Program-made: the position numbers and the translations under genes
Assembly (NCBI RefSeq): GCF_003057965.1
Contig: NZ_CP020921.1
Span: 374,501-438,500, forward strand
DNA from: Thermodesulfobium acidiphilum
GTDB lineage: Bacteria > Thermodesulfobiota > Thermodesulfobiia > Thermodesulfobiales > Thermodesulfobiaceae
DNA length: 64,000 nucleotides
Direction: 5' to 3'
The notes under the pieces: model-generated
Told to the model about the DNA's origin: nothing
The model's database searches: none
The model's input: the letters and a program-made list of their open reading frames with translations, nothing else
Shown: piece after piece, positions 13,122-25,494 of the stretch
Layout of the letters: each line of letters opens with the position of its first letter
Numbering within the stretch: the stretch's first letter is position 1

Positions 13122-14771
13122 CTACTCTACGCTTAAACTTCCACTAATCACACCATCATTAAAGTTTACGCTTATATTTGATACCTCACCGTCTATAGGA
13201 CTAAATATATTTAATCTTTCAATGTGTCTGTTGTTATTTTCAATCTGAACGCTTAACTTAGCCTGTTCAGACTGAATGCTTGCAATCTCAAGCTCTTCAT
13301 TTGCCTTCAGATTAGATATATCATTCTCAATATTCTTTACTGCCTGCTCAGAGATTAAGCCTTCTCTATAAAGATTTTTATTTAATTCAAGTTCTTTATA
13401 TTTACTTTCGAGTTTTTCTTTGTAATTTGCCTGTATCTTTTCTATAGAGTTATTTAGTTTTGAAAAATCTATATAATTTTTATTATTCTCAAGTTTTAAA
13501 GCGTCCTGTTCTTTCGATGATATAACGAGTATGTCGCCTTTCTTTACCTTCTGGCCTACTTTAACCTTTATGTCTGATATGTCAAGTGCGTTAAAGCGTA
13601 CAGTGATTTTATTTATATTTTCAGGGATATTTTTATCTGTATAATTTTTTTTCTCTGAAGTGTAATTGAGTTCTGAAGCGTGCGCTACGTCTTTATAAAC
13701 TTTCTTCTCATATCTTATTGCAAGCTTACCACTGGTTATATGTGTATTCTTTAGCCTGTCAAGGTCTTCAAGCCTTGCAAACTGTAACTCTATTCTCTTT
13801 TGGTTTAACTTTATAGGGTTATATTGTGTGGGATATGAGGCTATATGATAGTGTTCATCGTCTATATATAACTCGCCTGTAATAAATGCTCTTGTGTCAG
13901 GGTCAGTAATGCTACTTTCAATGTCTGAGATAATTTTACGTATATTCGTCCTGTAAACGCTAATATTTTTGTTTGATATCAAGATATTATCGCCTGTCTT
14001 CTCTTCCATAGAAAACGGCTGGATATTATCAGTTATGCCTTTTCCTACGCTATAGAGATATCCTGTTTCAGTGTCTTCTACTATAAGGCTATTTGCGCCT
14101 ATCCATCCACAAGCCTTAAACTGCTTGTTAATCTTCTCGTGTGTAACGTTGTGAATGCCTTTAAGGTTAACAATTGTTTCTTTCTCTGATGCCTCATATT
14201 TCACGTCTGACAATGCGCCTACTGGATTTTGAATAATTGAATGAATTATTTTTTTATAGCTCTCTGTTGGTAGACAAATAACAAATAGTAATATAAATAT
14301 TCCTGCTAATATTTTCTCTACCTTGCTACCTGGCATGAAGCCTCTAAATGCTGCATCTTTTTTCGTAATAAGTGAAAACCTGATAAATGAAGGATAAAGA
14401 AGCCTTACGCCTGTAACAGAAAAGCTTTCTAATATTAAGTGTGAAATATAGCCTATCTCTAAGCTAAGCAAATAAGAAGTGTTTAATTTAAAGATAAAGA
14501 ATGCTAAGTTTATTAATAGAGAAAAAATTAGATAACATAGTATTGAGTTTGTAAAGTCTATTATTTCCTGTTGGTTAACAGTAAGCTTATTAAAAATTGT
14601 AAAGGTTGATGATTTTCTGATTTTAAAGAGTATAACTGGCGTAAAACATATAAGGTTAGAGAATACACAGAGAATATAAAAGAATACATCAATCTTTACG
14701 TCATACGGTAAAAGTATCCTTACAAGCTGAATAAAAAGTAATGAAAAAGCTATATGAGTATAGAAGCTCAT
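13122..14771 (-). CDS. YdjM-like membrane domain fused to HlyD-type adaptor
   Basis: 549 residues with an unusual architecture. Residues 1-170 resemble the YdjM/DUF457 membrane 'metal-dependent hydrolase' family, with GYISHLILESFSVTGVRLLYP as the best match. The usual D-x-D-H and H-R-x-x-T-H motifs are absent and the Asp after S-H is Glu, so metal catalysis is doubtful. The middle (180-380) is unclassified. Residues 395-545 form a membrane-fusion-protein hairpin: a lipoyl-like half (VKVGQKVKKGDIL), a long coiled coil, and the second half (IFSPIDGEVSNISV). It overlaps the upstream TolC-like gene by four bases (ATGA), so an envelope-spanning assembly is the natural inference. It is the last gene of the minus-strand cluster. 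Confidence 0.65.
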   Translation of the reverse strand: MSFYTHIAFSLLFIQLVRILLPYDVKIDVFFYILCVFSNLICFTPVILFKIRKSSTFTIFNKLTVNQQEIIDFTNSILCYLIFSLLINLAFFIFKLNTSYLLSLEIGYISHLILESFSVTGVRLLYPSFIRFSLITKKDAAFRGFMPGSKVEKILAGIFILLFVICLPTESYKKIIHSIIQNPVGALSDVKYEASEKETIVNLKGIHNVTHEKINKQFKACGWIGANSLIVEDTETGYLYSVGKGITDNIQPFSMEEKTGDNILISNKNISVYRTNIRKIISDIESSITDPDTRAFITGELYIDDEHYHIASYPTQYNPIKLNQKRIELQFARLEDLDRLKNTHITSGKLAIRYEKKVYKDVAHASELNYTSEKKNYTDKNIPENINKITVRFNALDISDIKVKVGQKVKKGDILVISSKEQDALKLENNKNYIDFSKLNNSIEKIQANYKEKLESKYKELELNKNLYREGLISEQAVKNIENDISNLKANEELEIASIQSEQAKLSVQIENNNRHIERLNIFSPIDGEVSNISVNFNDGVISGSLSVE

Positions 14772-15373
14772 AAAGTTATCTCCATTTCTTTTATTTTCAA
14801 TTCATCCTCTGTCTGCTCAAGCCTGCTTTTTATGTCAAGTAATTCTATGATCACTTTTTCCACCTCATCCCTGGTAATAAGTCCTGCATTGTATCTGTTC
14901 TGGACAATTTTAACCTGTGCCTCTTTTAATTTTAACTGTGCTTTTAAATTTTCTAACAAATTCTTTAGCCTCTTTATTTCTGCTATCTTAGCGTTATACT
15001 CAAGCGTCAATTTCTTTTTAATCTCTTTTAAATTAGCTTCTTTTTGCTGTAGTTCAATCTTTGCAAGCTCAATTTTTTCTTTGTACGTAGAAGTATTTAA
15101 AAATATATCCGTAATATTTCCTGATACTGATATCCCTGATGTGACATAGCCTTTAGATGGGTCATATCCTGAATGATAATGAATTTCTGGCTCTGATGCC
15201 TTCTTTAACTCTTTCTTCTGAATTTCAAGGTTTATTTTAGCCTTATCGTAATCATTTTTCGCTGTGATGTATTGATTATTTTTTGCTATGTATTCGTCAA
15301 GCGTTACAATCTCATTTGCTTGTGCTTTTTGAAAGGTTAGAAGTAAAAATAATATAGTTAAGATTAGCTTCAT
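14768..15373 (-). CDS. Half-length TolC-like outer-membrane efflux protein
   Basis: 201 residues. A signal peptide (MKLILTILFLLLTFQKAQA) is followed by one TolC/OEP-type repeat: LDEYIAKNNQYITAKNDY, a short beta segment, then about 110 residues of coiled coil ending in RYNAGLITRDEVEKVIIELLDIKSRLEQ, the classic OEP motif. TolC proteins have two such repeats in 420-480 residues, so this is half the usual size and a trimer could not make the normal 12-stranded barrel; a hexamer might. Both ends overlap the neighbours by four bases, showing tight coupling with the HlyD-like and beta-barrel genes. Confidence 0.7.
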   Translation of the reverse strand: MKLILTILFLLLTFQKAQANEIVTLDEYIAKNNQYITAKNDYDKAKINLEIQKKELKKASEPEIHYHSGYDPSKGYVTSGISVSGNITDIFLNTSTYKEKIELAKIELQQKEANLKEIKKKLTLEYNAKIAEIKRLKNLLENLKAQLKLKEAQVKIVQNRYNAGLITRDEVEKVIIELLDIKSRLEQTEDELKIKEMEITL

Positions 15374-16443
15374 ATAGTAATCCCAAAAAATATTTTAGAA
15401 TTCTGGATATTAGCCGTTAAAAAGCCTGGTTGTCCTGTAATCTTAAATATCTTTATTCCTGCCTTCACGGCAAGGTTATTCTCTTGATATGTGATGCCAA
15501 AAAGCCCTTTATCGTTATTGATTGAAAAATTAATATTAGTCCCTGTGTGCCTGTCCTGCCTTGTGATATTCGTATACAGGCTTATAGTTGTATTTCTGTC
15601 TTCACCGTCTCTTAAATCTTTTTCAATTGATGCGGATATAGAATAGTTAGTAATCTTATGGTATACCACTGATATTGAACTGTTAAAGTCTGCAACGTTA
15701 AAATATCTGTCTATCATAAATGTAGATTTTATTTTGTCTGATTTAGTTAATGTGTGCCTTATATTAAAGTCAAATATCTTTTTATAGCTTGACATCTGAT
15801 ATGTAGGATGGCCTTTCAAGAAGTTAGCGTATATGTCAGATTTGATAGTCTTAAAATAAACGCTCTGGCTAATATAAAGGTCTTTCTTTTGTGCTATCTC
15901 TGAACCTGTAGTTGAGAAGTAATTTTCAATCTTTAATCTTTTGTGATCATACTTGTTATATATGCTGCTTCCTGATAGTGCCTTAGTTTTCTTGTCAAAC
16001 TCAGAACCTATTGAAGTAGAAAATTCACCTGTTACGTATCTGGTCCCAAAGATAACATTTTCTCTCTTTTTCTCTTTGTCTGTGCTGTCTATGTAAAAGT
16101 AGTGTATGCCGTCCTTTTCTGAGTTGTCAGCTACTGCGTAATAATATCCTTTAAGATATTTTGCCTTTGGCCTGGTGAATAAATTTTTCTTTTCTTCTTC
16201 TGGATAATCGTAAACCCTGCCCGTGAAATACTCAAAGCCTTTTTCTTTCTCTTTAAAAGATAAGCCCTGTGCGCTTCTTTGATAGTGTCCTGCCTGTATA
16301 TAACAGTCTCCTACGTTATAACTCATAAAATAATCTTCAGCGCTAATATTGGCTTTATTTTTTGTAATCTCTAAACTTGTAACGTCTGCATAAGCCTTAT
16401 TATTTAGAGACAAAAATATAAAAATCAACAAAGTTATCCACAT
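15370..16443 (-). CDS. Predicted secreted beta-barrel-like envelope protein
   Basis: 357 residues. The N-terminus MWITLLIFIFLSLNNKAYA is a signal sequence without the usual positive charge. The mature part is rich in alternating hydrophobic/polar strands with many Tyr, Thr, Ser and Asn (for example SISVVYHKITNYSISASIEKD) and ends in a Phe/Ile-rich strand FFGITI, suggesting an outer-membrane barrel. I do not recognise a family. There is no Shine-Dalgarno site; instead DnaA-box-like 9-mers lie on and just upstream of the start codon (16434-16475). Downstream it overlaps the TolC-like gene by four bases. Confidence 0.6.
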   Translation of the reverse strand: MWITLLIFIFLSLNNKAYADVTSLEITKNKANISAEDYFMSYNVGDCYIQAGHYQRSAQGLSFKEKEKGFEYFTGRVYDYPEEEKKNLFTRPKAKYLKGYYYAVADNSEKDGIHYFYIDSTDKEKKRENVIFGTRYVTGEFSTSIGSEFDKKTKALSGSSIYNKYDHKRLKIENYFSTTGSEIAQKKDLYISQSVYFKTIKSDIYANFLKGHPTYQMSSYKKIFDFNIRHTLTKSDKIKSTFMIDRYFNVADFNSSISVVYHKITNYSISASIEKDLRDGEDRNTTISLYTNITRQDRHTGTNINFSINNDKGLFGITYQENNLAVKAGIKIFKITGQPGFLTANIQNSKIFFGITI

Positions 16444-16475
16444 GATATAAACAAGTTATCAACAAGTTATCCACA
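16434..16475. promoter_or_regulatory. DnaA-box array 1 (four 9-mers at 11-bp pitch)
   Basis: Same-orientation 9-mers begin at 16434 (TTATCCACA), 16445 (ATATAAACA, degenerate), 16456 (TTATCAACA) and 16467 (TTATCCACA), exactly 11 bases apart. Two are perfect matches to the bacterial DnaA-box consensus TTATNCACA and one differs at one base. The array fills the 40-bp gap between two minus-strand genes and covers the start codon of the beta-barrel-like gene. Its twin lies at 21196-21237. Binding by DnaA is inferred from the motif. Confidence 0.7.
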
Positions 16476-16483
16476 TATATCTA

Positions 16484-17188
16484 TTAGATAATTTTCCTGA
16501 AATACTGATAATAGATAAACCTAAACAAAAAAAACATAGCCCCCATTGATCCCGCAAAGATATACGTGTCTTCATCGTTTAATCCAAGCGCTATAAACCT
16601 AAGCATAATAAAGATAAATCCAAAACCAAGAAGTATAGGAACAATAGACACATATGTAGCTCCGTCATATCTTAGTGCGTGTAGTGGCTCGCCTTCAGCG
16701 TATCGCCTGGCTAATTCTTCTGCACCGTTAAGGTTGCCACATGCAAGGTTATAGATATGTCTTGCTATCTCAGATGAAATATTATATTTTTTTGTAATAT
16801 AATTTATTATCTTCTCTTTCTGTGAAAAAAGCTTTATCTCTTTCCCGTGCTTAAAAAAGGTAGTGATAATCTTCCCTGTAGGAAGAGATGAACAGCTAAC
16901 ATAAACGTCATTTTTTTCAAGCATTGCCTGGATAAATATTGCGAAGCTATCTGTCAGCTTTTCTGCGTGATTTATGTAAAATGGTTGATTTAGACTTCTT
17001 AACTCGTCTGCTAAACCGTATACATTTAAACCCTTTGTCTCAACGTTTAAATTTTTCAATACCTGTCTTATACATGTAGATGGCGGTGTAGGATTGTCAA
17101 TATATATCCCAAATTTGGTTTTCATAATTGATTTTAGATGTCTTTCTCCTAAACCTGAGCTGTCTATTATGTAATAAAACGTGCCCAT
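16484..17188 (-). CDS. Uncharacterised protein with two C-terminal membrane helices
   Basis: 234 residues. The first 165 look cytoplasmic and mixed alpha/beta, and residues 175-228 hold two hydrophobic helices. The opening (YYIIDSSGLGERHLK) and the SCSSLPTGKIITTFF segment superficially resemble P-loop ATPases, but no Walker A or B is present, so I make no functional call. RBS GAGGAGG precedes the ATG. It lies upstream of the beta-barrel/TolC/HlyD-like genes in the same direction, so it may belong to that unit. Confidence 0.6.
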   Translation of the reverse strand: MGTFYYIIDSSGLGERHLKSIMKTKFGIYIDNPTPPSTCIRQVLKNLNVETKGLNVYGLADELRSLNQPFYINHAEKLTDSFAIFIQAMLEKNDVYVSCSSLPTGKIITTFFKHGKEIKLFSQKEKIINYITKKYNISSEIARHIYNLACGNLNGAEELARRYAEGEPLHALRYDGATYVSIVPILLGFGFIFIMLRFIALGLNDEDTYIFAGSMGAMFFLFRFIYYQYFRKII

Positions 17189-17221
17189 TTTCCTCCTCTT
17201 TTCCTTTAAGAAATCTAAAAG

Positions 17222-17242
17222 GCCGCTAAGGTTATTAGCGAC
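17222..17242 (-). terminator. Terminator after the secreted beta-sandwich gene
   Basis: GCCGCTAA at 17222-17229 pairs with TTAGCGAC at 17235-17242 across a 5-base loop, with one G-U pair in minus-strand RNA. On that strand it is followed by CTTTTAGATTTCTT. It lies just downstream of the stop codon at 17254 and separates this gene from the following envelope set. Confidence 0.65.
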
Positions 17243-17253
17243 CCTGAATTTTT

Positions 17254-18165
17254 CTACTTAGAAACTAAAGTTATAGTCTGAAGTGCAAAGGTAGCATTGG
17301 CATTAGGAATTATAACCTCTCTTATAGACTGATATCCTGATTTACTAACTCGTATAGGTACCTGTAGAATGCCGTTTGCTGGCACTACTATACTAAACTC
17401 GCCGTTAGCATTAGTAACAGTCTCAGGATATCCTACTTCTTTTAATGGTGCTGTTACCTTTGCATTAGCCACTGGATTACCCACTGCGTCAAGAACCTGT
17501 CCCGTTATAGTGGCTGTAGTTGTAGGCAGTACGTCTACGGTTACATTTTCATTAGCTACTGTAGTTGTGTCTTTGGTTACATTAAACTGTCCTGTAGCCA
17601 TTGTATTCTTTATCCCATGCCCTAAAACTCTAACGTAATAGATAAAAGTAGAAGTATCATTTGGCTTTATTGCCTTTAGCGTGTATGTGCCGTCCTGCGC
17701 TGTTGTAGCCTTATCTACGACGTATTTACCCATAGTAGTACTTCCAAATCTTGGATCTTCTTTCATCAGTTGAACTACCAGGCCGCCTATTCCGTTGCCT
17801 GATGCGTCAGCTACCTTGCCTGTAACTGCTGCTGTGCCTCCTGCTGAAGGCATAGCCTTTATAGATATGTTTTTGTTTTTGGTAGTGATAGATACGGATT
17901 TGTCAACTCCAACATATCCTGTCTCTTTAACCTCGACTGTATAAACGCCTGAGTTAACGCCTGTAAAGAGAAACCTACCCGCGCTATCAGCTGTAACCTC
18001 CTTAAGAATATTACCAGAGCTGTCCTTTAGGTCTACAGTAGCGCCTGAAAGAGTAGCGGCTGTCTCAGCATCTATAATCTTGCCTTTGATATCCATTGCG
18101 TTTGCTGCTGATACAAGAATTAGTAAGCTTGAGCCAATCATTAAACCGCTTAAAAGTTTGTTCAC
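17254..18165 (-). CDS. Secreted protein with carboxypeptidase-regulatory-like repeats
   Basis: 303 residues from a GTG start chosen because AAGGAGGG lies five bases upstream. A signal peptide (NKLLSGLMIGSSLLILVSAANA) is followed by three beta-sandwich modules of about 85-95 residues. Each opens with a G-K/Q-V/I-x-D-A segment (KGKIIDAETAATLSGATV, TGKVADASGNGIGGLVV, TGQVLDAVGNPVANAKV), the hallmark of CarboxypepD_reg/transthyretin-like domains. Such modules serve adhesion, surface anchoring or cargo presentation rather than catalysis. It has its own promoter at 18259-18287 with an 85-90 base leader and its own terminator. Confidence 0.8.
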   Translation of the reverse strand: MNKLLSGLMIGSSLLILVSAANAMDIKGKIIDAETAATLSGATVDLKDSSGNILKEVTADSAGRFLFTGVNSGVYTVEVKETGYVGVDKSVSITTKNKNISIKAMPSAGGTAAVTGKVADASGNGIGGLVVQLMKEDPRFGSTTMGKYVVDKATTAQDGTYTLKAIKPNDTSTFIYYVRVLGHGIKNTMATGQFNVTKDTTTVANENVTVDVLPTTTATITGQVLDAVGNPVANAKVTAPLKEVGYPETVTNANGEFSIVVPANGILQVPIRVSKSGYQSIREVIIPNANATFALQTITLVSK

Positions 18166-18258
18166 TCTAACCCTCCTTAAAATTATTTGTTTTTCTAAGG
18201 CCAAAATCTAATTTAATACAAGCAAATCGCATCACCCCCATATGATTAATTATCAAAA

Positions 18259-18287
18259 ATAATAAATTATAATAGATAATTTGTCAA
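18259..18287 (-). promoter_or_regulatory. Promoter of the secreted beta-sandwich gene
   Basis: On the minus strand a perfect -35 TTGACA (18282-18287) is followed after 17 bases by -10 TATTAT (18259-18264). Transcription would start near 18252 and run through a leader containing GGGGGTGATGCG before the GTG start at 18165. Upstream, an imperfect 18-bp palindrome at 18320-18337 (AAGATA/TATCTT arms) could be an operator. Confidence 0.6.
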
Positions 18288-18447
18288 TATCTGAAATTGA
18301 AAGTAAGTATAAAAGTATAAGATAGTTAATTATCTTCCAGATAAAATTTATTGTGGATTGAATATGAAGGTCTTAGGGGAGATAAAAATTGACTTTAAAT
18401 ATTACGTATAATTGTTTTATTTGCAATTATTTATTCCTGATAGAGAT

Positions 18448-20991
18448 TCAGGAGTTTAATATTTTATGAAGTTCACTCTTTGACATTGGCCTGTAAAACA
18501 AAAATCCCTGATAGTAATCGCATCCCATTGATTTTAGGATTTCAAACTGTTCTACAGTCTCTACACCTTCTGCTATGGTTTTTATGTTTAGGGATTTTGA
18601 TAGGGCAATGATTGCGTTTGTAACGTTTTTTGTGTCTTTATCGTTTAGGTTTTTTACAAAAGATGTGTCTATTTTTAGGAAATTTACTTTTAGCTTTGAT
18701 AGATAAGAGAGGCTTGAATATCCTGTGCCAAAGTCATCAATGCTAAAAAATATATTAAATTTCTTTAAGTTTTCTATAAGATTTCTTATATACTCAAAGT
18801 TTTCTAAAAAGGATCTTTCAATAATTTCTATATTTAATATGTTATGAGAAATATCTATGTTTATATTGCCTTTTACTTTTCTTCGGGTTAGTTTCGATAT
18901 AAGGCTTTGGGATAGGTCCTTTCTAAATAAGCTTTTTATAGAGAGGTTGACAGAAACTGGAAAACTAAAACCTAGTTCACTTATATCGTCTAAAACATTA
19001 TCGATTATTAAATCTTCAACATCTACAATATATTGCCCAGCTTCCAGCTCTTCTATAAATTCCGATGGCAACAGGATATTATCGCCTTTCTTCCATCGCA
19101 TCAGGGCTTCTAACCCGACTATATTTTTATCTCTATCTACATATGGCTGATAATAAACAATGAATTCTTTATTTGACACTGCGCGTTCAAGTTCAGTTAT
19201 TAAATTCAACCTTTTTATGACATCTTCTTCAATATCTTTTCTGAAAAAGCCAATCTGATTTTTTCCCTTTTGTTTTGCATCTACCAGCGCAATGTTTGCC
19301 ATTTTTAGTATTTCAGATGGGTTGTTTACATCCTTTGATATGAATATTATTCCAAGATTAAATTCAAGAATAATATGACTGTTTCCTGTGTTATATGGCA
19401 TTGCGAGTTCTTTTAAAATTTTTTTGGCAACTAGTAACACATCCTCTTTAAATCTCAGAGGTCTTATCAATACTCCAAATTTTTCTGATTCAAGTCTTGC
19501 TACAATGTCATTTTTTTCCACTATTTGATTTAGTCTGGACGCTATCAGACTAAGCAATTTATTCCCTGTGTCAAACCCAAAGGCTTCGTTTATCCTTCTA
19601 AATTCTTGTGGATCAATTAATATTAGCGCTCCAATTTGATCTTCGTATTTTACTGTTTGACAAAATTTTTCTATTTCTTTAATAAAATAATTAGTATTTG
19701 GTAAATTTGTTATGGGATCGTAGAAAAGCGCCTTTTCAAGACTTTTTAAGAGTTCATCCTCCCTTTCCAATATTTTGCCGATAACAATATAATTGGTAAC
19801 TTTTTCCCCTTTAAAATAAGGCATAATATTTACAAGAAAATCTTTAGGAGAGTTATCCTTGAGCCTATAACTTATTACTCCAGTATATTGCCTGTCTGAA
19901 GAAAGCCTCTTGTAAATATCCTTTTTAAAGTCTTCTGATTGTTCAAAAAAACAAAAATCAATAAGATCTTTCCCGATAATTTCATTAGTTTGATATCCAG
20001 AAAGTTTTTTGGCTTTATCGTTTGCATATAATATTTTAAAGTTATCGTCTACTATACATACAAATTCGAAGCTTTTGTTTACTGCAGAAAGAATAAGTTG
20101 ATACCACTTTTCATTTTCAACTTTTTCCAGGGCAAAAGATATGTCTAATTTTATCTGTTCCAGGAGGTGCAGGTGATCACTGTCAAACGTATTCGCAATA
20201 GTGTCGTGCAGGAGCAAAATATATTTTACCTCTCCTCTCTTTAATATTGGGATTGAACAGGCTGAAGATATGTTGAATTTGTTGAAAAAGTCATGCCAGT
20301 AGTGACCTGATTCAAGTTTTGAAATCTGAGAAATCAGGCTTATCTCTTTTGTGTGATAGGCTTTTGAAACCGTGCCTGTGCCATATGGGGTGTTTGGGTC
20401 TGCGCCAATCGTTAAAGATTTAAGGGCATCTTCTATCTCTTTTGTTTTGGCTTTTGTATAAATTTGTCTAAACAGCTTATTCTCATCTATATAGCCTATG
20501 GCACAATCCAGGTAACCAACCTCATCAATAGCTATTTCACAAATTTTTTCAAGAATTTCTTCCTCATCTTCAATCCTTACTATTAACTGATTTATCTGGC
20601 TTAAGGTGAGAAATAGCTTTTCAAATGACTTTTCTTTTGTTCTGTCAAGGATTAAAACCAGTCCAGAGTATTTGTTGTTATATTCTATTGTATAGGCAAA
20701 GAGAGATACAGGAATTATCGCATTAGTTCTGGATTTAAGATAGTGTTCTATATATTCAGCTGCAAAAATCTCTCCCTGGGCTTTTCTTTTTATATGCGAT
20801 TTAACTTCATCAACATCTGAAGCTACCAGCTCTATTGCACTTTTCCCAATTAGCTCTTCTTTGCTGTCATACTTTAAAATTTGTGCTATCTTGTCGTTTG
20901 CAAAAACAATTTTAGCCTCTTCTCCTTGATATATGTATACTCCAAATACAGATGAATTTAATAGGAATTGGAACGTTTGCAGGTTAGACAT
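18448..20991 (-). CDS. PAS-GAF-PAS-GGDEF-EAL signalling protein, probable c-di-GMP phosphodiesterase
   Basis: 847 residues. Order: PAS (1-120), GAF (125-290), PAS (295-410), GGDEF (425-585), EAL (600-847). The GGDEF signature is replaced by RLESEKFGVLI at 499-509, so diguanylate cyclase activity is probably lost; such domains can still bind GTP and regulate the EAL part. The EAL domain keeps its motifs: GLEALMRW at 626-633, an Asn in the VNLS segment, DDFGTGYSS at 752-760 and AEGVE near 808, so it should hydrolyse c-di-GMP. No membrane segment is visible. RBS GGAGGAGGA precedes the ATG. The surrounding surface-protein genes fit c-di-GMP control of the envelope. Confidence 0.9.
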   Translation of the reverse strand: MSNLQTFQFLLNSSVFGVYIYQGEEAKIVFANDKIAQILKYDSKEELIGKSAIELVASDVDEVKSHIKRKAQGEIFAAEYIEHYLKSRTNAIIPVSLFAYTIEYNNKYSGLVLILDRTKEKSFEKLFLTLSQINQLIVRIEDEEEILEKICEIAIDEVGYLDCAIGYIDENKLFRQIYTKAKTKEIEDALKSLTIGADPNTPYGTGTVSKAYHTKEISLISQISKLESGHYWHDFFNKFNISSACSIPILKRGEVKYILLLHDTIANTFDSDHLHLLEQIKLDISFALEKVENEKWYQLILSAVNKSFEFVCIVDDNFKILYANDKAKKLSGYQTNEIIGKDLIDFCFFEQSEDFKKDIYKRLSSDRQYTGVISYRLKDNSPKDFLVNIMPYFKGEKVTNYIVIGKILEREDELLKSLEKALFYDPITNLPNTNYFIKEIEKFCQTVKYEDQIGALILIDPQEFRRINEAFGFDTGNKLLSLIASRLNQIVEKNDIVARLESEKFGVLIRPLRFKEDVLLVAKKILKELAMPYNTGNSHIILEFNLGIIFISKDVNNPSEILKMANIALVDAKQKGKNQIGFFRKDIEEDVIKRLNLITELERAVSNKEFIVYYQPYVDRDKNIVGLEALMRWKKGDNILLPSEFIEELEAGQYIVDVEDLIIDNVLDDISELGFSFPVSVNLSIKSLFRKDLSQSLISKLTRRKVKGNINIDISHNILNIEIIERSFLENFEYIRNLIENLKKFNIFFSIDDFGTGYSSLSYLSKLKVNFLKIDTSFVKNLNDKDTKNVTNAIIALSKSLNIKTIAEGVETVEQFEILKSMGCDYYQGFLFYRPMSKSELHKILNS

Positions 20992-21195
20992 GATATCCTC
21001 CTCCCTTTAAATATCTTTATACCTTAATTATCAAATTATTAACATCTACTCCCTGAAAAAAAATAATTTTTTATTATTATATTTCTTCTCTTGCTAAATA
21101 TAAATAATGATAACTTATAAAATTTTAGCTTTAAAAAGCTTAATATATTTTGCAAATGCTATTTTTGAGGAGATTAGAGTATAAAATCTCTAAAA

Positions 21196-21237
21196 TTATT
21201 CACAGGATATCCACAACTTATTAACAACTTATCCACA
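21196..21237. promoter_or_regulatory. DnaA-box array 2 (four 9-mers at 11-bp pitch) in AT-rich gap
   Basis: Same-orientation 9-mers start at 21196 (TTATTCACA), 21207 (ATATCCACA), 21218 (TTATTAACA) and 21229 (TTATCCACA), exactly 11 bases apart. The first and last fit the DnaA-box consensus TTATNCACA; the middle two differ at one base. The arrangement copies array 1, even in which boxes are degenerate. About 140 bp of very AT-rich DNA (21045-21165) and a hairpin (GAGATT 21170-21175 with AATCTC 21185-21190) lie next to it, an origin-like layout. No dnaA gene is in the window, so it could also be a DnaA-regulated or titration site. Confidence 0.7.
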
Positions 21238-21281: not shown

Positions 21282-21698
21282 TTAGGATGATAATATTTCA
21301 ATAGATTTTAGTAGCTCATCTTTTTTCTTATACACATCCCCCAGATATGACTCTTCGTGTGGAAGTTCTAATCTTAAAAGATCGTCTTTGGTTAAATTCT
21401 TTTCAAATATATATCTGTTATTCTTGAAGTCATAATAGCACAGACTGGTTTTACTCTTTAAGACTATATCTCTCATGGTGCTTTTACCTGATATATAGTT
21501 CAGTATTACTGTTTGGTTTTCACACAGAAACCACTTTTCGTATTCTTCGTCATCATCATGCCAGATTAGTGCAATAGTTGCAGTTTTGTTTACCATAACC
21601 CTTGGTCCATAGTACCAGACCAGGATTTCAAAGTTATTCTCTAAAAGGACATCCCCTTCTTTATTTTCTATTTTTATTTTATAATCAAACACCAGCAT
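21282..21698 (-). CDS. Hypothetical protein of 138 residues
   Basis: Soluble, mixed beta/alpha protein with many aromatic and acidic residues (for example ALIWHDDDEEYEKWFL near residue 43). It starts ATG after an AGAGGG site. No membrane segment, signal peptide or known motif is visible. It is expressed towards the DnaA-box array 2 and the c-di-GMP phosphodiesterase gene, 45 bases beyond its stop. I do not recognise a family. Confidence 0.6.
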   Translation of the reverse strand: MLVFDYKIKIENKEGDVLLENNFEILVWYYGPRVMVNKTATIALIWHDDDEEYEKWFLCENQTVILNYISGKSTMRDIVLKSKTSLCYYDFKNNRYIFEKNLTKDDLLRLELPHEESYLGDVYKKKDELLKSIEILSS

Positions 21699-22490: not shown

Positions 22491-22634
22491 ATGGCGGATG
22501 GGATTAGTTTTCTTTTCCTGGGTTTAGAGGCTTTTTTGTTTTTTGAGTTTAATCTCAGGTTGTATGACATTGTCAACCTGGATTACTCCCCTAAAAAATC
22601 TTTGGAGGTGAAAGAGCTATGCAAATTTTTTTAG
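22491..22634 (+). CDS. 47-residue small protein leading the carbon-fixation operon
   Basis: The first gene after the operon promoter. AAAGGAGG at 22478-22485 is ideally placed before the ATG. The product has one hydrophobic stretch ([17 protein letters not shown]) followed by a charged tail with [16 protein letters not shown], so it may be a membrane-attached peptide. It overlaps the transaldolase start by 16 bases, and its last codons include the transaldolase RBS, which suggests translational coupling. It could be a true small protein or a leader whose translation opens the downstream start. No family is recognised. Confidence 0.6.
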
Positions 22635-23272
22635 ATACTGCGAAAATTGACGAAATTAGAAAATTAGTTCCTACTGGTGTGGTAGATGGTGTTACCACGA
22701 ATCCATCACTGCTTGCAAAGGCTGGTTGTAAAGACATTAAAGGTGCAATAAAGGAAATTTGTGCTCTGGTAAAAGAGCCTGTTAGCGTAGAGGTTATAGG
22801 GACTCAAGCAGATCAGATGATAAAAGAAGCAAGAGAATATTCATCCTGGAAGCTAAATACTGCTGTAAAGATCCCTATGACGGAAGAAGGCTTAAAGGCT
22901 GTAAGCGTTTTGTCAAAAGAAGGCATTAAGACGAACGTTACGCTCATTTTTTCAACTAGCCAGGGACTTCTTGCAGCTAAAGCAGGTGCGACCTTTGTGA
23001 GCCCATTTGTTGGCAGGTTGGATGACATATCCCATAACGGTCTGGAAGTGGTAAGAGACCTGGCACATATATTTAAGATTTATGGGATAAATACAAGAAT
23101 TATTGCAGCCAGCATCAGACATCCTATTCACGTAGTAGAATCTGCGAAAGCGGGAGCTCACATCGCCACAATCCCCACTAAGGTTTTAGAGGCTATGTTT
23201 AGACACCCGCTGACTGACATAGGGATTGAGAAATTTTTAAGCGATTGGAAAGGGCTTCAGGAATCAAAATAG
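22619..23272 (+). CDS. tal: Transaldolase (short TalC/MipB type)
   Basis: 217-residue aldolase-fold enzyme. The Schiff-base lysine is Lys84 in NTAVKIPMT, and the family openings [12 protein letters not shown] and [11 protein letters not shown] are intact. In the carbon-fixation cycle it would join fructose 6-phosphate and erythrose 4-phosphate to give sedoheptulose 7-phosphate. This avoids sedoheptulose bisphosphate and its phosphatase, for which the operon has no gene. Short transaldolases of this group include fructose 6-phosphate aldolases, which cannot be excluded, but operon context strongly favours transaldolase. RBS GGAGG precedes the ATG. The RuBisCO gene follows after 34 bases. Confidence 0.9.
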
Positions 23273-23306
23273 TTTAGAAGTAAAAAAATAATAATGAGGT
23301 GAAATT

Positions 23307-24596
23307 ATGAGCAATAAATTAAATATTAAATATACAAATTTTTTGGATTTTGACTACGTTCCGAAAAAAAATGATGTGCTGGCTGCCTTTTACGTGGAAC
23401 CTGCTCCAGGGACAGACATTAAAGAGGCTGCTGGAGCTGTGGCATCTGAGTCATCTATAGGTACATGGACAGATCTTGCTACTATGAAACAAAGTATTTG
23501 GGATGAATTGAGAGCAAGAGTTTATTCTATAGAAGGCGATGTTGTAAGGATAGCATATCCAGACGTGCTCTTTGAAGCAGCTAATCTTCCTCAGTTTTTA
23601 AGTAGCATTGCGGGAAACGTCTTTGGAATGAAAGCAGTAGAAAATTTAAGGTTGTTAGACATCGTTCTCACACAAAAATTTTTGGATGAGTTAAATGGAC
23701 CTGCTTTTGGAGTAGAGGGCGTAAGAGAGGTATTGAACGTCAAGGACAGACCCTTGGTTGGAACTATTGTTAAGCCAAAGTTAGGGCTTGATCCAAAGGA
23801 GCAGGCAAAGGTAGTATATGAATCTCTTGTTGGTGGTTTAGATCTGGTAAAGGATGATGAAAACCTCACTCATCAAGATTTTTCTAATTTTGATGAGAGG
23901 GTAAAATATTCGCTCGATGCGGTTAGGCGCGCTGAAAAAGAGACTGGTGAGAAAAAGGCATATCTGCCAAACGTTACAGCTCCCACAGAGGAGATGTTAA
24001 GAAGAGCTACTCTGGTTAAACAAGAAGGTGGAAAGTATGCGATGGTGGACGTAATAACCACAGGTTTCGCAGGGGTTCAAAGTCTCAGGAATGCAAATAC
24101 AGGGCTGATACTACATGCTCACAGGGCTATGTATGCAAGCTTTGCAAGAAGCAAAAAACACGGCATTCACATGTTAGTTCTCTCAAAGCTTTTGAGATTT
24201 GCAGGAGTGGACCAGCTTCATATTGGCACTGTAGTAGGAAAAATGGAAGGAGATAGGGATGACGTATTGGTGTGTCATGAAGCTTTGGGTTCTAGCAGTG
24301 AAATGAAAGTGAAAACATATTTGCCACATCAAGAATGGGGCAATATGAAGAGCGTTTTTTCTGTAGCATCTGGTGGGCTTCACCCAGGCCATACAGCTGA
24401 TCTTTATAAAATATTTGGGAAAAATGCTATTTTTCAATATGGCGGAGGAGTTCACGGACATCCAGAAGGAACCAGAATGGGTGCAAGGGCTGTAAGGGAT
24501 GCAGTTGAGTGTGCTGTTAAGGGAATAACTTTGAAAGAAGGGGCAAAGAGCAGCAAGGCGCTTGAAATTGCCCTATCAAAATGGGGAGGTGCATAA
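23307..24596 (+). CDS. rbcL: RuBisCO large subunit, archaeal-type form III
   Basis: 429 residues, shorter than the plant-type 470-480 and typical of form III. The active site is complete: catalytic KPK at 156-158, the carbamylated lysine Lys182 in GLDLVKDDEN with its metal-binding acids, HAHRAM near 271, the loop-6 lysine Lys312 in GTVVGKMEGD, and the phosphate-binding SGG and YGGGVHGHP segments. No small-subunit gene is present, as expected for form III. The enzyme carboxylates ribulose 1,5-bisphosphate to two 3-phosphoglycerates. In archaea form III usually acts in nucleotide salvage; the adjacent phosphoribulokinase shows a cyclic, autotrophic role here. Confidence 0.95.
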   Translation: MSNKLNIKYTNFLDFDYVPKKNDVLAAFYVEPAPGTDIKEAAGAVASESSIGTWTDLATMKQSIWDELRARVYSIEGDVVRIAYPDVLFEAANLPQFLSSIAGNVFGMKAVENLRLLDIVLTQKFLDELNGPAFGVEGVREVLNVKDRPLVGTIVKPKLGLDPKEQAKVVYESLVGGLDLVKDDENLTHQDFSNFDERVKYSLDAVRRAEKETGEKKAYLPNVTAPTEEMLRRATLVKQEGGKYAMVDVITTGFAGVQSLRNANTGLILHAHRAMYASFARSKKHGIHMLVLSKLLRFAGVDQLHIGTVVGKMEGDRDDVLVCHEALGSSSEMKVKTYLPHQEWGNMKSVFSVASGGLHPGHTADLYKIFGKNAIFQYGGGVHGHPEGTRMGARAVRDAVECAVKGITLKEGAKSSKALEIALSKWGGA

Positions 24597-24597
24597 A

Positions 24598-25494
24598 ATG
24601 AGCGTCGATCCTGTATTTATAGGCATAGCTGGGGATAGCGGTGCTGGAAAGAGCACATTTGTAAAAGATATAGCCACTCTTTTGGGTAGAGATAAGGTAA
24701 GAACTATATCTTTTGACGATTATCACTCTCTTGATAGGGTTGAGAGAAAGGCTATAGGGATTACTCCTCTTCATCCCAGGGCAAACAATCTCGGCCTTGC
24801 AATCGAGCACCTCTTTTTGCTTAAACAAGGGAAAAAGGTCTTAAAGCCCGTTTACGATCACTCTACAGGCAGTTTTGGAGATCCTGAGTGGGTGGTTCCT
24901 GTGCCTTATATAATATGTGAAGGTCTGCATCCATTTTTCTTTAGGTCTCTTGCAGAACTCTATGATATGAAGGTTTACTACGATACCCAGATGGATTTGA
25001 AATTCAACTGGAAGGTAAAAAGGGATACAGCAGAAAGAGGATATACAGTAGAACAGGTAGCAAAAGAGATCAGGCTCAGACAAAGAGATATTAGGAACTT
25101 TGTAGAGCCACAATGTGCTCTTGCGGATATAATAATCAAATTAAAGATTTCAAAAACTAGCTCTTCTGCAATTGGAGTGGACTGGAAGGAACCAGTCGAT
25201 GATCCCTGGTTAAAGAAGTATTTGAAATCGTGTAATTTTGATGATTGGAAGTGTTTTAACGAGTGGTATGCGGGTAGAAAGATGAACGTTTTTGGAATAC
25301 AAAGCGATTTAACTCAGGATCAGTTGAAAGAATTAAGTTCTATATTCTCTATAAGTCAAGATGTTCTTTCTAAGGTTAAGGAAAAGGAAGTAGTACCATA
25401 TCGAACTATGTTAGTTTTGTTTGCTACCAGAATCAAGCAAATTAGGGCATCAAAGGACAAAGAAGAAAAGGTGGTGTTCAAAGATGCCGTTTAG
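24598..25494 (+). CDS. prk: Phosphoribulokinase
   Basis: 298 residues from the ATG one base after the rbcL stop, with GGGGAGGT as RBS. The P-loop is GDSGAGKST at 12-20. Further family features are [10 protein letters not shown] with the catalytic Asp, the HPRANN segment, and an ICEGLHPFF stretch. It phosphorylates ribulose 5-phosphate to the RuBisCO substrate, making it the committed gene for a Calvin-type cycle rather than the AMP salvage route. The sequence is longer and closer to the cyanobacterial/archaeal branch than to the proteobacterial CbbP type. The end overlaps the next gene by 11 bases. Confidence 0.93.

Follow-up and report, generated by a model that had tools for sequence, protein, structure and literature searches.

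Two phased DnaA-box arrays outside oriC in Thermodesulfobium acidiphilum and their possible role in the control of neighboring genes

Two short arrays of DnaA boxes lie close together in a region of the Thermodesulfobium acidiphilum chromosome that carries an envelope/export operon and the gene for an enzyme of cyclic di-GMP (c-di-GMP) turnover. The window analyzed is a stretch of 64,000 nucleotides (positions 374,501-438,500 of a single 1,774,794-bp contig), and coordinates refer to this window unless they are said to be genomic. Array 1 falls within the operon, and array 2 lies upstream of the c-di-GMP gene (Table 1). Array 1 reads TTATCCACA-TG-ATATAAACA-AG-TTATCAACA-AG-TTATCCACA and array 2 reads TTATTCACA-GG-ATATCCACA-AC-TTATTAACA-AC-TTATCCACA. 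Within each array all four boxes share one orientation, and the boxes follow the motif WTATNMACA, which is also that of the array between dnaA and dnaN. Re-examination confirmed the start positions, shared orientation, and exact 11-bp pitch that a first-pass annotation of the sequence had given for both arrays, as well as its remark that in each of them the second box opens with ATAT and the third closes with AACA.

We take these elements for true DnaA-box arrays, as opposed to a motif that only resembles one, because oriC has the same four-box array with 2-bp linkers. In genomic coordinates, dnaA occupies 64-1416, and the dnaA-dnaN intergenic region, presumed to be oriC, contains an array at 1439-1480 that reads TTATCCACA-TA-ATATTAACA-AG-TTATCCACA-AG-TTATCAACA and continues with two more boxes, with further single boxes around it. 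Arrays 1 and 2 match this array in motif, pitch, linkers, and the ATAT second box. In all three arrays, the boxes come after a stop codon and point against the gene that ends there. Over the 100 bp flanking box 1, A+T content is 82% for array 2, compared with 72% on the same side of array 1 and 79% at oriC. The description of array 2 as adjoining AT-rich DNA and a hairpin is correct on both counts, but the hairpin (GAGATT...AATCTC) is small and, in the alignment, is not conserved in the sister species. As a separate observation, the whole dnaA-dnaN gap (L002:1417-1644) holds some eleven DnaA-like boxes, arranged as two groups that oppose each other and well conserved in four species.

The four-box pattern is rare. 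It has two matches in the window, which are arrays 1 and 2, and when the window was dinucleotide-shuffled 100 times it had none. When up to three mismatches were allowed, the whole genome gave three matches (genomic positions 1439-1480, 390,934, and 395,696), so the search for further arrays proposed with the first-pass annotation turned up one more, in the dnaA-dnaN region. A reversed control pattern had no match in this genome and, at no more than one mismatch, none across 386 genomes. Box pairs with 2-bp linkers were confined to the same three places in a whole-genome search, and a looser genome search (gaps of at most 28 bp, direct or inverted) returned isolated weak pairs only and no further convincing cluster. 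The window shows no excess of single DnaA-like 9-mers, with 13 counted against 9.1 expected and 18 of the 100 shuffles reaching 13; only the phased arrays stand out. A survey of the 386 genomes, nearly all of them from other phyla, found the array in 3 of 326 genera, and among these only T. acidiphilum and its sister species have arrays hundreds of kilobases apart.

The position of the two arrays on the chromosome bears on whether they could be an origin. GC skew, sampled in 10-20-kb stretches about every 50 kb, is mostly positive from 0 to about 0.87 Mb, where genes are mostly on the plus strand, and mostly negative past 0.91 Mb. This pattern places the origin and terminus near 0 and 0.9 Mb. 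The arrays, at 0.391 and 0.396 Mb, are located mid-replichore (about 44% of the replichore), with positive sampled skew on either side of 0.39 Mb and none of the switch in skew or gene orientation that marks oriC. Within the window, skew turns negative locally at 13-22 kb, alongside a block of minus-strand genes. A replication origin at the array locus, which the first-pass annotation had offered as one meaning of clustered DnaA boxes, is thus rejected on the position of dnaA, with its array-bearing gap next to it, and on the sampled skew; the two checks it had suggested, GC skew and the location of dnaA, both place the origin elsewhere, at dnaA.

Conservation was assessed in four genomes of the genus, two of which are draft assemblies: T. 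acidiphilum (G000), the sister species (G001), G002, and G003. The sister species has the dnaA-dnaN array and two arrays at 425612-425653 and 430361-430402, which occupy the same gene gaps, and the proteins flanking the arrays are 72-83% identical between the two species. None of the 24 core box positions differs between these species in either array, whereas 9 of the 18 remaining positions of array 1 and 7 of the 18 of array 2 have changed (Fisher p of 1e-4 and 1e-3). Identity in the flank of array 2 is 66%, and in a simulation at 35% divergence, all four boxes stayed intact with a probability of about 5e-6 per array. Because the cores are unchanged while the free positions have diverged, the comparison indicates that purifying selection acts on the array boxes in these two species. 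G003 keeps the operon, with an array 1 (C38:2650-2691) in which two boxes are intact and two degraded, but both the orthologous c-di-GMP gene and array 2 are absent from it; a transposase-like sequence stands at the break upstream of the first gene of its operon. In G002, no array was found outside oriC in the assembly, and all that is left of the operon is the frameshifted 3′ part of its hydrolase-adaptor gene, which lies at the edge of a contig (L141:5168-5509) and is a sign of the operon's former presence there. Neither the G002 nor the G003 assembly contains a replacement array elsewhere.

Array 1 of T. acidiphilum agrees with array 2 of the sister species at 39 of 42 positions and with its own orthologue at 33 of 42. 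This cross-pairing of array 1 from one species with array 2 from the other is supported by three sites, and a pairing of orthologues by none; such sites are too few for us to claim gene conversion. Permutation of box order as a test of similarity, oriC included, was run on three sets of copies and gave p values of 0.06, 0.009, and 0.68. It is thus possible but not established that the arrays were copied from oriC or from one another. The first-pass suggestion of common descent or shared function accordingly divides: the match to oriC and the orthologous positions in the sister species speak for shared function, and common descent is possible but not demonstrated, with p values for box-order similarity to oriC that range from 0.009 to 0.68 depending on the copies compared.

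Table 1. Arrays, neighboring genes, and candidate promoters in the window
Feature	Coordinates	Strand	Description
Array 1	16434..16475	+	Four DnaA boxes starting at 16434, 16445, 16456, 16467; 11-bp pitch; 2-bp linkers
Array 2	21196..21237	+	Four DnaA boxes starting at 21196, 21207, 21218, 21229; 11-bp pitch; 2-bp linkers
Hydrolase-adaptor gene	13122..14771	-	YdjM-like metal-dependent hydrolase, apparent fusion with HlyD/RND-adaptor-like part; PF04307 E 9.8e-8; TIGR01730 weak
TolC-type gene	14768..15373	-	TolC-type outer membrane efflux protein, short; PF02321 E 4.7e-14
Gene downstream of array 1	15370..16443	-	357 amino acids; hydrophobic, signal-peptide-like N-terminus
Gene upstream of array 1	16484..17188	-	234 amino acids; AAA+/STAND-like fold (moderate-confidence model); C-terminal membrane helices
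First gene of the operon	17254..18204	-	CarboxypepD_reg-repeat surface/periplasmic protein
Candidate operon promoter	18259..18287	-	Sigma-70-like; TTGACA-17-TATTAT
c-di-GMP gene downstream of array 2	18448..20991	-	PAS-GAF-PAS-GGDEF-EAL; 204-bp gap to array 2
Candidate promoter of c-di-GMP gene	21076..21104	-	TTTATA-17-TATAAT, 10/12; about 90 bp downstream of array 2
138-amino-acid protein gene	21282..21698	-	Stop codon 44 bp before array 2; 82% identical in G001

Array 1 occupies the gap from the stop codon of the upstream gene (8 bp from box 4) to the start codon of the downstream gene. As first described, it covers a start codon, and the overlap is between box 1 and the ATG at 16443-16441 of the minus-strand reading frame 15370-16443; the corresponding codon is TTG in the sister species. 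No Shine-Dalgarno sequence was seen before this gene because the array fills the gap. Its product has no Pfam or NCBIfam match, and its AlphaFold model (predicted local distance difference test score, pLDDT, of 30) is too low for use. The product of the upstream gene has no recognizable Walker A/B motifs, and its AAA+ assignment is made with moderate confidence from a model of pLDDT 67 and similarity to Walker-bearing relatives. Those relatives are "ATP-binding proteins" in a conserved gene cluster of cyanobacterial plasmids such as pSYSX, pNOS7524.01, and pANACY.03, which contains the ATPase, a YdjM hydrolase, DUF87, and sometimes a TolC-family gene (one case nearby). The TTGACA box of the candidate operon promoter aligns in three species, and the spacing of its -10 element varies. 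A phage origin of the operon was considered and rejected, with no informative PHROGs matches and no viral relatives of the ATPase-like gene, and an RNA element was rejected with no Rfam family within 12.7-23.3 kb.

Sites like the candidate promoter of the c-di-GMP gene occur at background frequency (30 found, 27 expected). Domain scans found no family for the 138-amino-acid protein. Further along, plus-strand genes at 22619-25494, a transaldolase gene, then a gene for the RuBisCO large subunit and others, are 88-98% identical in related species.

The sequence comparisons show that the two arrays share the motif of oriC, have no further counterpart in the genome, sit at orthologous positions, and are under purifying selection at their boxes. 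The reading that we favor, in which our confidence is about evenly balanced, is that they are conserved DnaA-binding arrays outside oriC that control adjacent genes in cis; occupancy, regulation, and its sign are what we infer. DnaA, probably in its ATP-bound form, would assemble cooperatively and head to tail on four boxes spaced 2 bp apart, as at oriC. At array 2, DnaA bound upstream of the promoter of the c-di-GMP gene would control that gene, and at array 1, DnaA would block transcription between the ATPase-like gene and 15370-16443, over the start codon, which would place the distal half of the envelope/export operon under control. Such behavior has precedents. E. coli DnaA prefers pairs of boxes 2-3 bp apart in vivo, with both boxes needed, and as a transcription regulator it can act on initiation or, within transcribed DNA, form a roadblock to elongation (PMC11317965). 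B. subtilis DnaA occupies eight regions in vivo; some of these are regulatory, and several genes at its clusters are under its direct control (PMC4447404). The arrays also track their genes, as G003 has the operon with a weak array 1 and lacks both the c-di-GMP orthologue and array 2, and G002 has no more than a remnant of the operon and no array outside oriC. Local gene control is favored over a core initiation role because the arrays are lost together with their genes.

Several observations weigh against this reading. The gene-following argument draws on only four genomes, two of them draft, and cannot settle control versus an initiation role. There is no convincing conserved promoter next to either array: the candidate for the operon precedes array 1 by 1.8 kb, and the candidate near array 2 scores at background and is not clearly conserved. 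In G003, two boxes of array 1 are degraded though the gene is intact, so array 1 is not indispensable. A more ambitious version of local control, in which a roadblock over a start codon in the operon and an array before the c-di-GMP enzyme would let the DnaA cycle of this deep-branching lineage directly time the envelope-export module and c-di-GMP turnover, we consider unlikely.

Titration of DnaA may be the main rival to local gene control or a side effect of it. On this account, which is possible though on the doubtful side, eight closely placed boxes would keep DnaA from oriC, would be doubled at passage of the fork, and would help set the timing of initiation, much as the B. subtilis clusters or datA as a sink would do. 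The oriC-type architecture, the selection on the boxes, and the proximity of the two arrays would suit such a locus, and removal of six clusters outside oriC in B. subtilis leads to early initiation (PMC5295017). The similar relative distance from oriC in the two species (391 of 1775 kb in G000 and 426 of 1899 kb in G001) points the same way but may reflect no more than general synteny. Set against these points, G002 and largely G003 manage without the arrays or any replacement found in their assemblies, and a mid-replichore locus would be duplicated well after initiation. We give less credence still to arrays that bind DnaA with no selected role in neighboring-gene control and are kept for local chromosome structure, for example, by DnaA-mediated looping between the two arrays, 4.76 kb apart, that encloses three genes. 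The same-direction arrays do bracket genes 16484-20991 in both species at a nearly equal separation (4762 bp in G000 and 4749 bp in G001), but G003 keeps one array without the other.

The two remaining explanations are weaker. That the locus is a second or former replication origin, such as that of an integrated plasmid, is very improbable. The AT-rich DNA next to array 2 would fit, as would the cyanobacterial plasmids on which distant relatives of the 16484 and 13122 genes are neighbors, beside ParA/ParB on one of them. However, neither skew nor gene direction switches at 0.39 Mb, no initiator or partition gene was recognized among the nearby genes scanned, the plasmid clusters inspected have scattered single boxes and no DnaA-box array, and the architecture of the arrays is that of the host's own oriC. 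That the arrays arose by chance, or are the motif of a different regulator, is scarcely credible: degenerate single boxes are common in AT-rich DNA, but zero arrays are expected, and the identity with the oriC array and the selection on box cores argue otherwise. The shuffles, the control pattern, and the conservation together led us to reject chance.

Compared with known systems, the arrays probably fit an established type of DnaA site outside oriC, of which they would be a well-preserved example. The datA locus of E. coli works through IHF and DnaA-ATP hydrolysis. It resembles the present locus as a non-origin site with several DnaA boxes and is a DnaA sink, whereas here related species exist without the array locus; two matches to the HU/IHF family are present in T. 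acidiphilum. In a DARS core, the paired boxes face opposite ways. Like E. coli DARS1 and DARS2, the arrays are non-origin loci in intergenic DNA with predicted DnaA binding, but all four boxes of each array share one orientation, unlike a DARS core. The double-box sites at E. coli nrdA, polA, purH, and nrdD also have same-direction boxes 2-3 bp apart (PMC11317965), with two boxes where the arrays have four and with nucleotide or replication genes where the neighbors here are envelope and c-di-GMP genes. The B. subtilis clusters outside oriC are proposed to serve both in regulation and as sinks for DnaA (PMC5295017, PMC4447404). These DnaA-box clusters (DBCs), described by Okumura et al. 2012 (cited in PMC5295017), are multi-box, outside oriC, few per genome, and mostly beside genes, as here, but differ from the strictly four boxes at an exact oriC-like 11-bp pitch and from the placement of two clusters at one mid-replichore locus. 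The T. acidiphilum arrays likewise have oriC-type 9-mers, a location away from oriC, and evolutionary maintenance (full in G001 and partial in G003), although their neighboring genes bear no relation to the targets that PMC4447404 names for B. subtilis.

Most of what is known about DnaA clusters outside the origin comes from a small number of model bacteria, and here a compact genome from the isolated phylum Thermodesulfobiota has exactly two outside oriC. Both are strongly conserved and tied to one gene neighborhood. With related species that have two, one, or none of the arrays, the genus offers a simple natural test of gene control versus DnaA titration.

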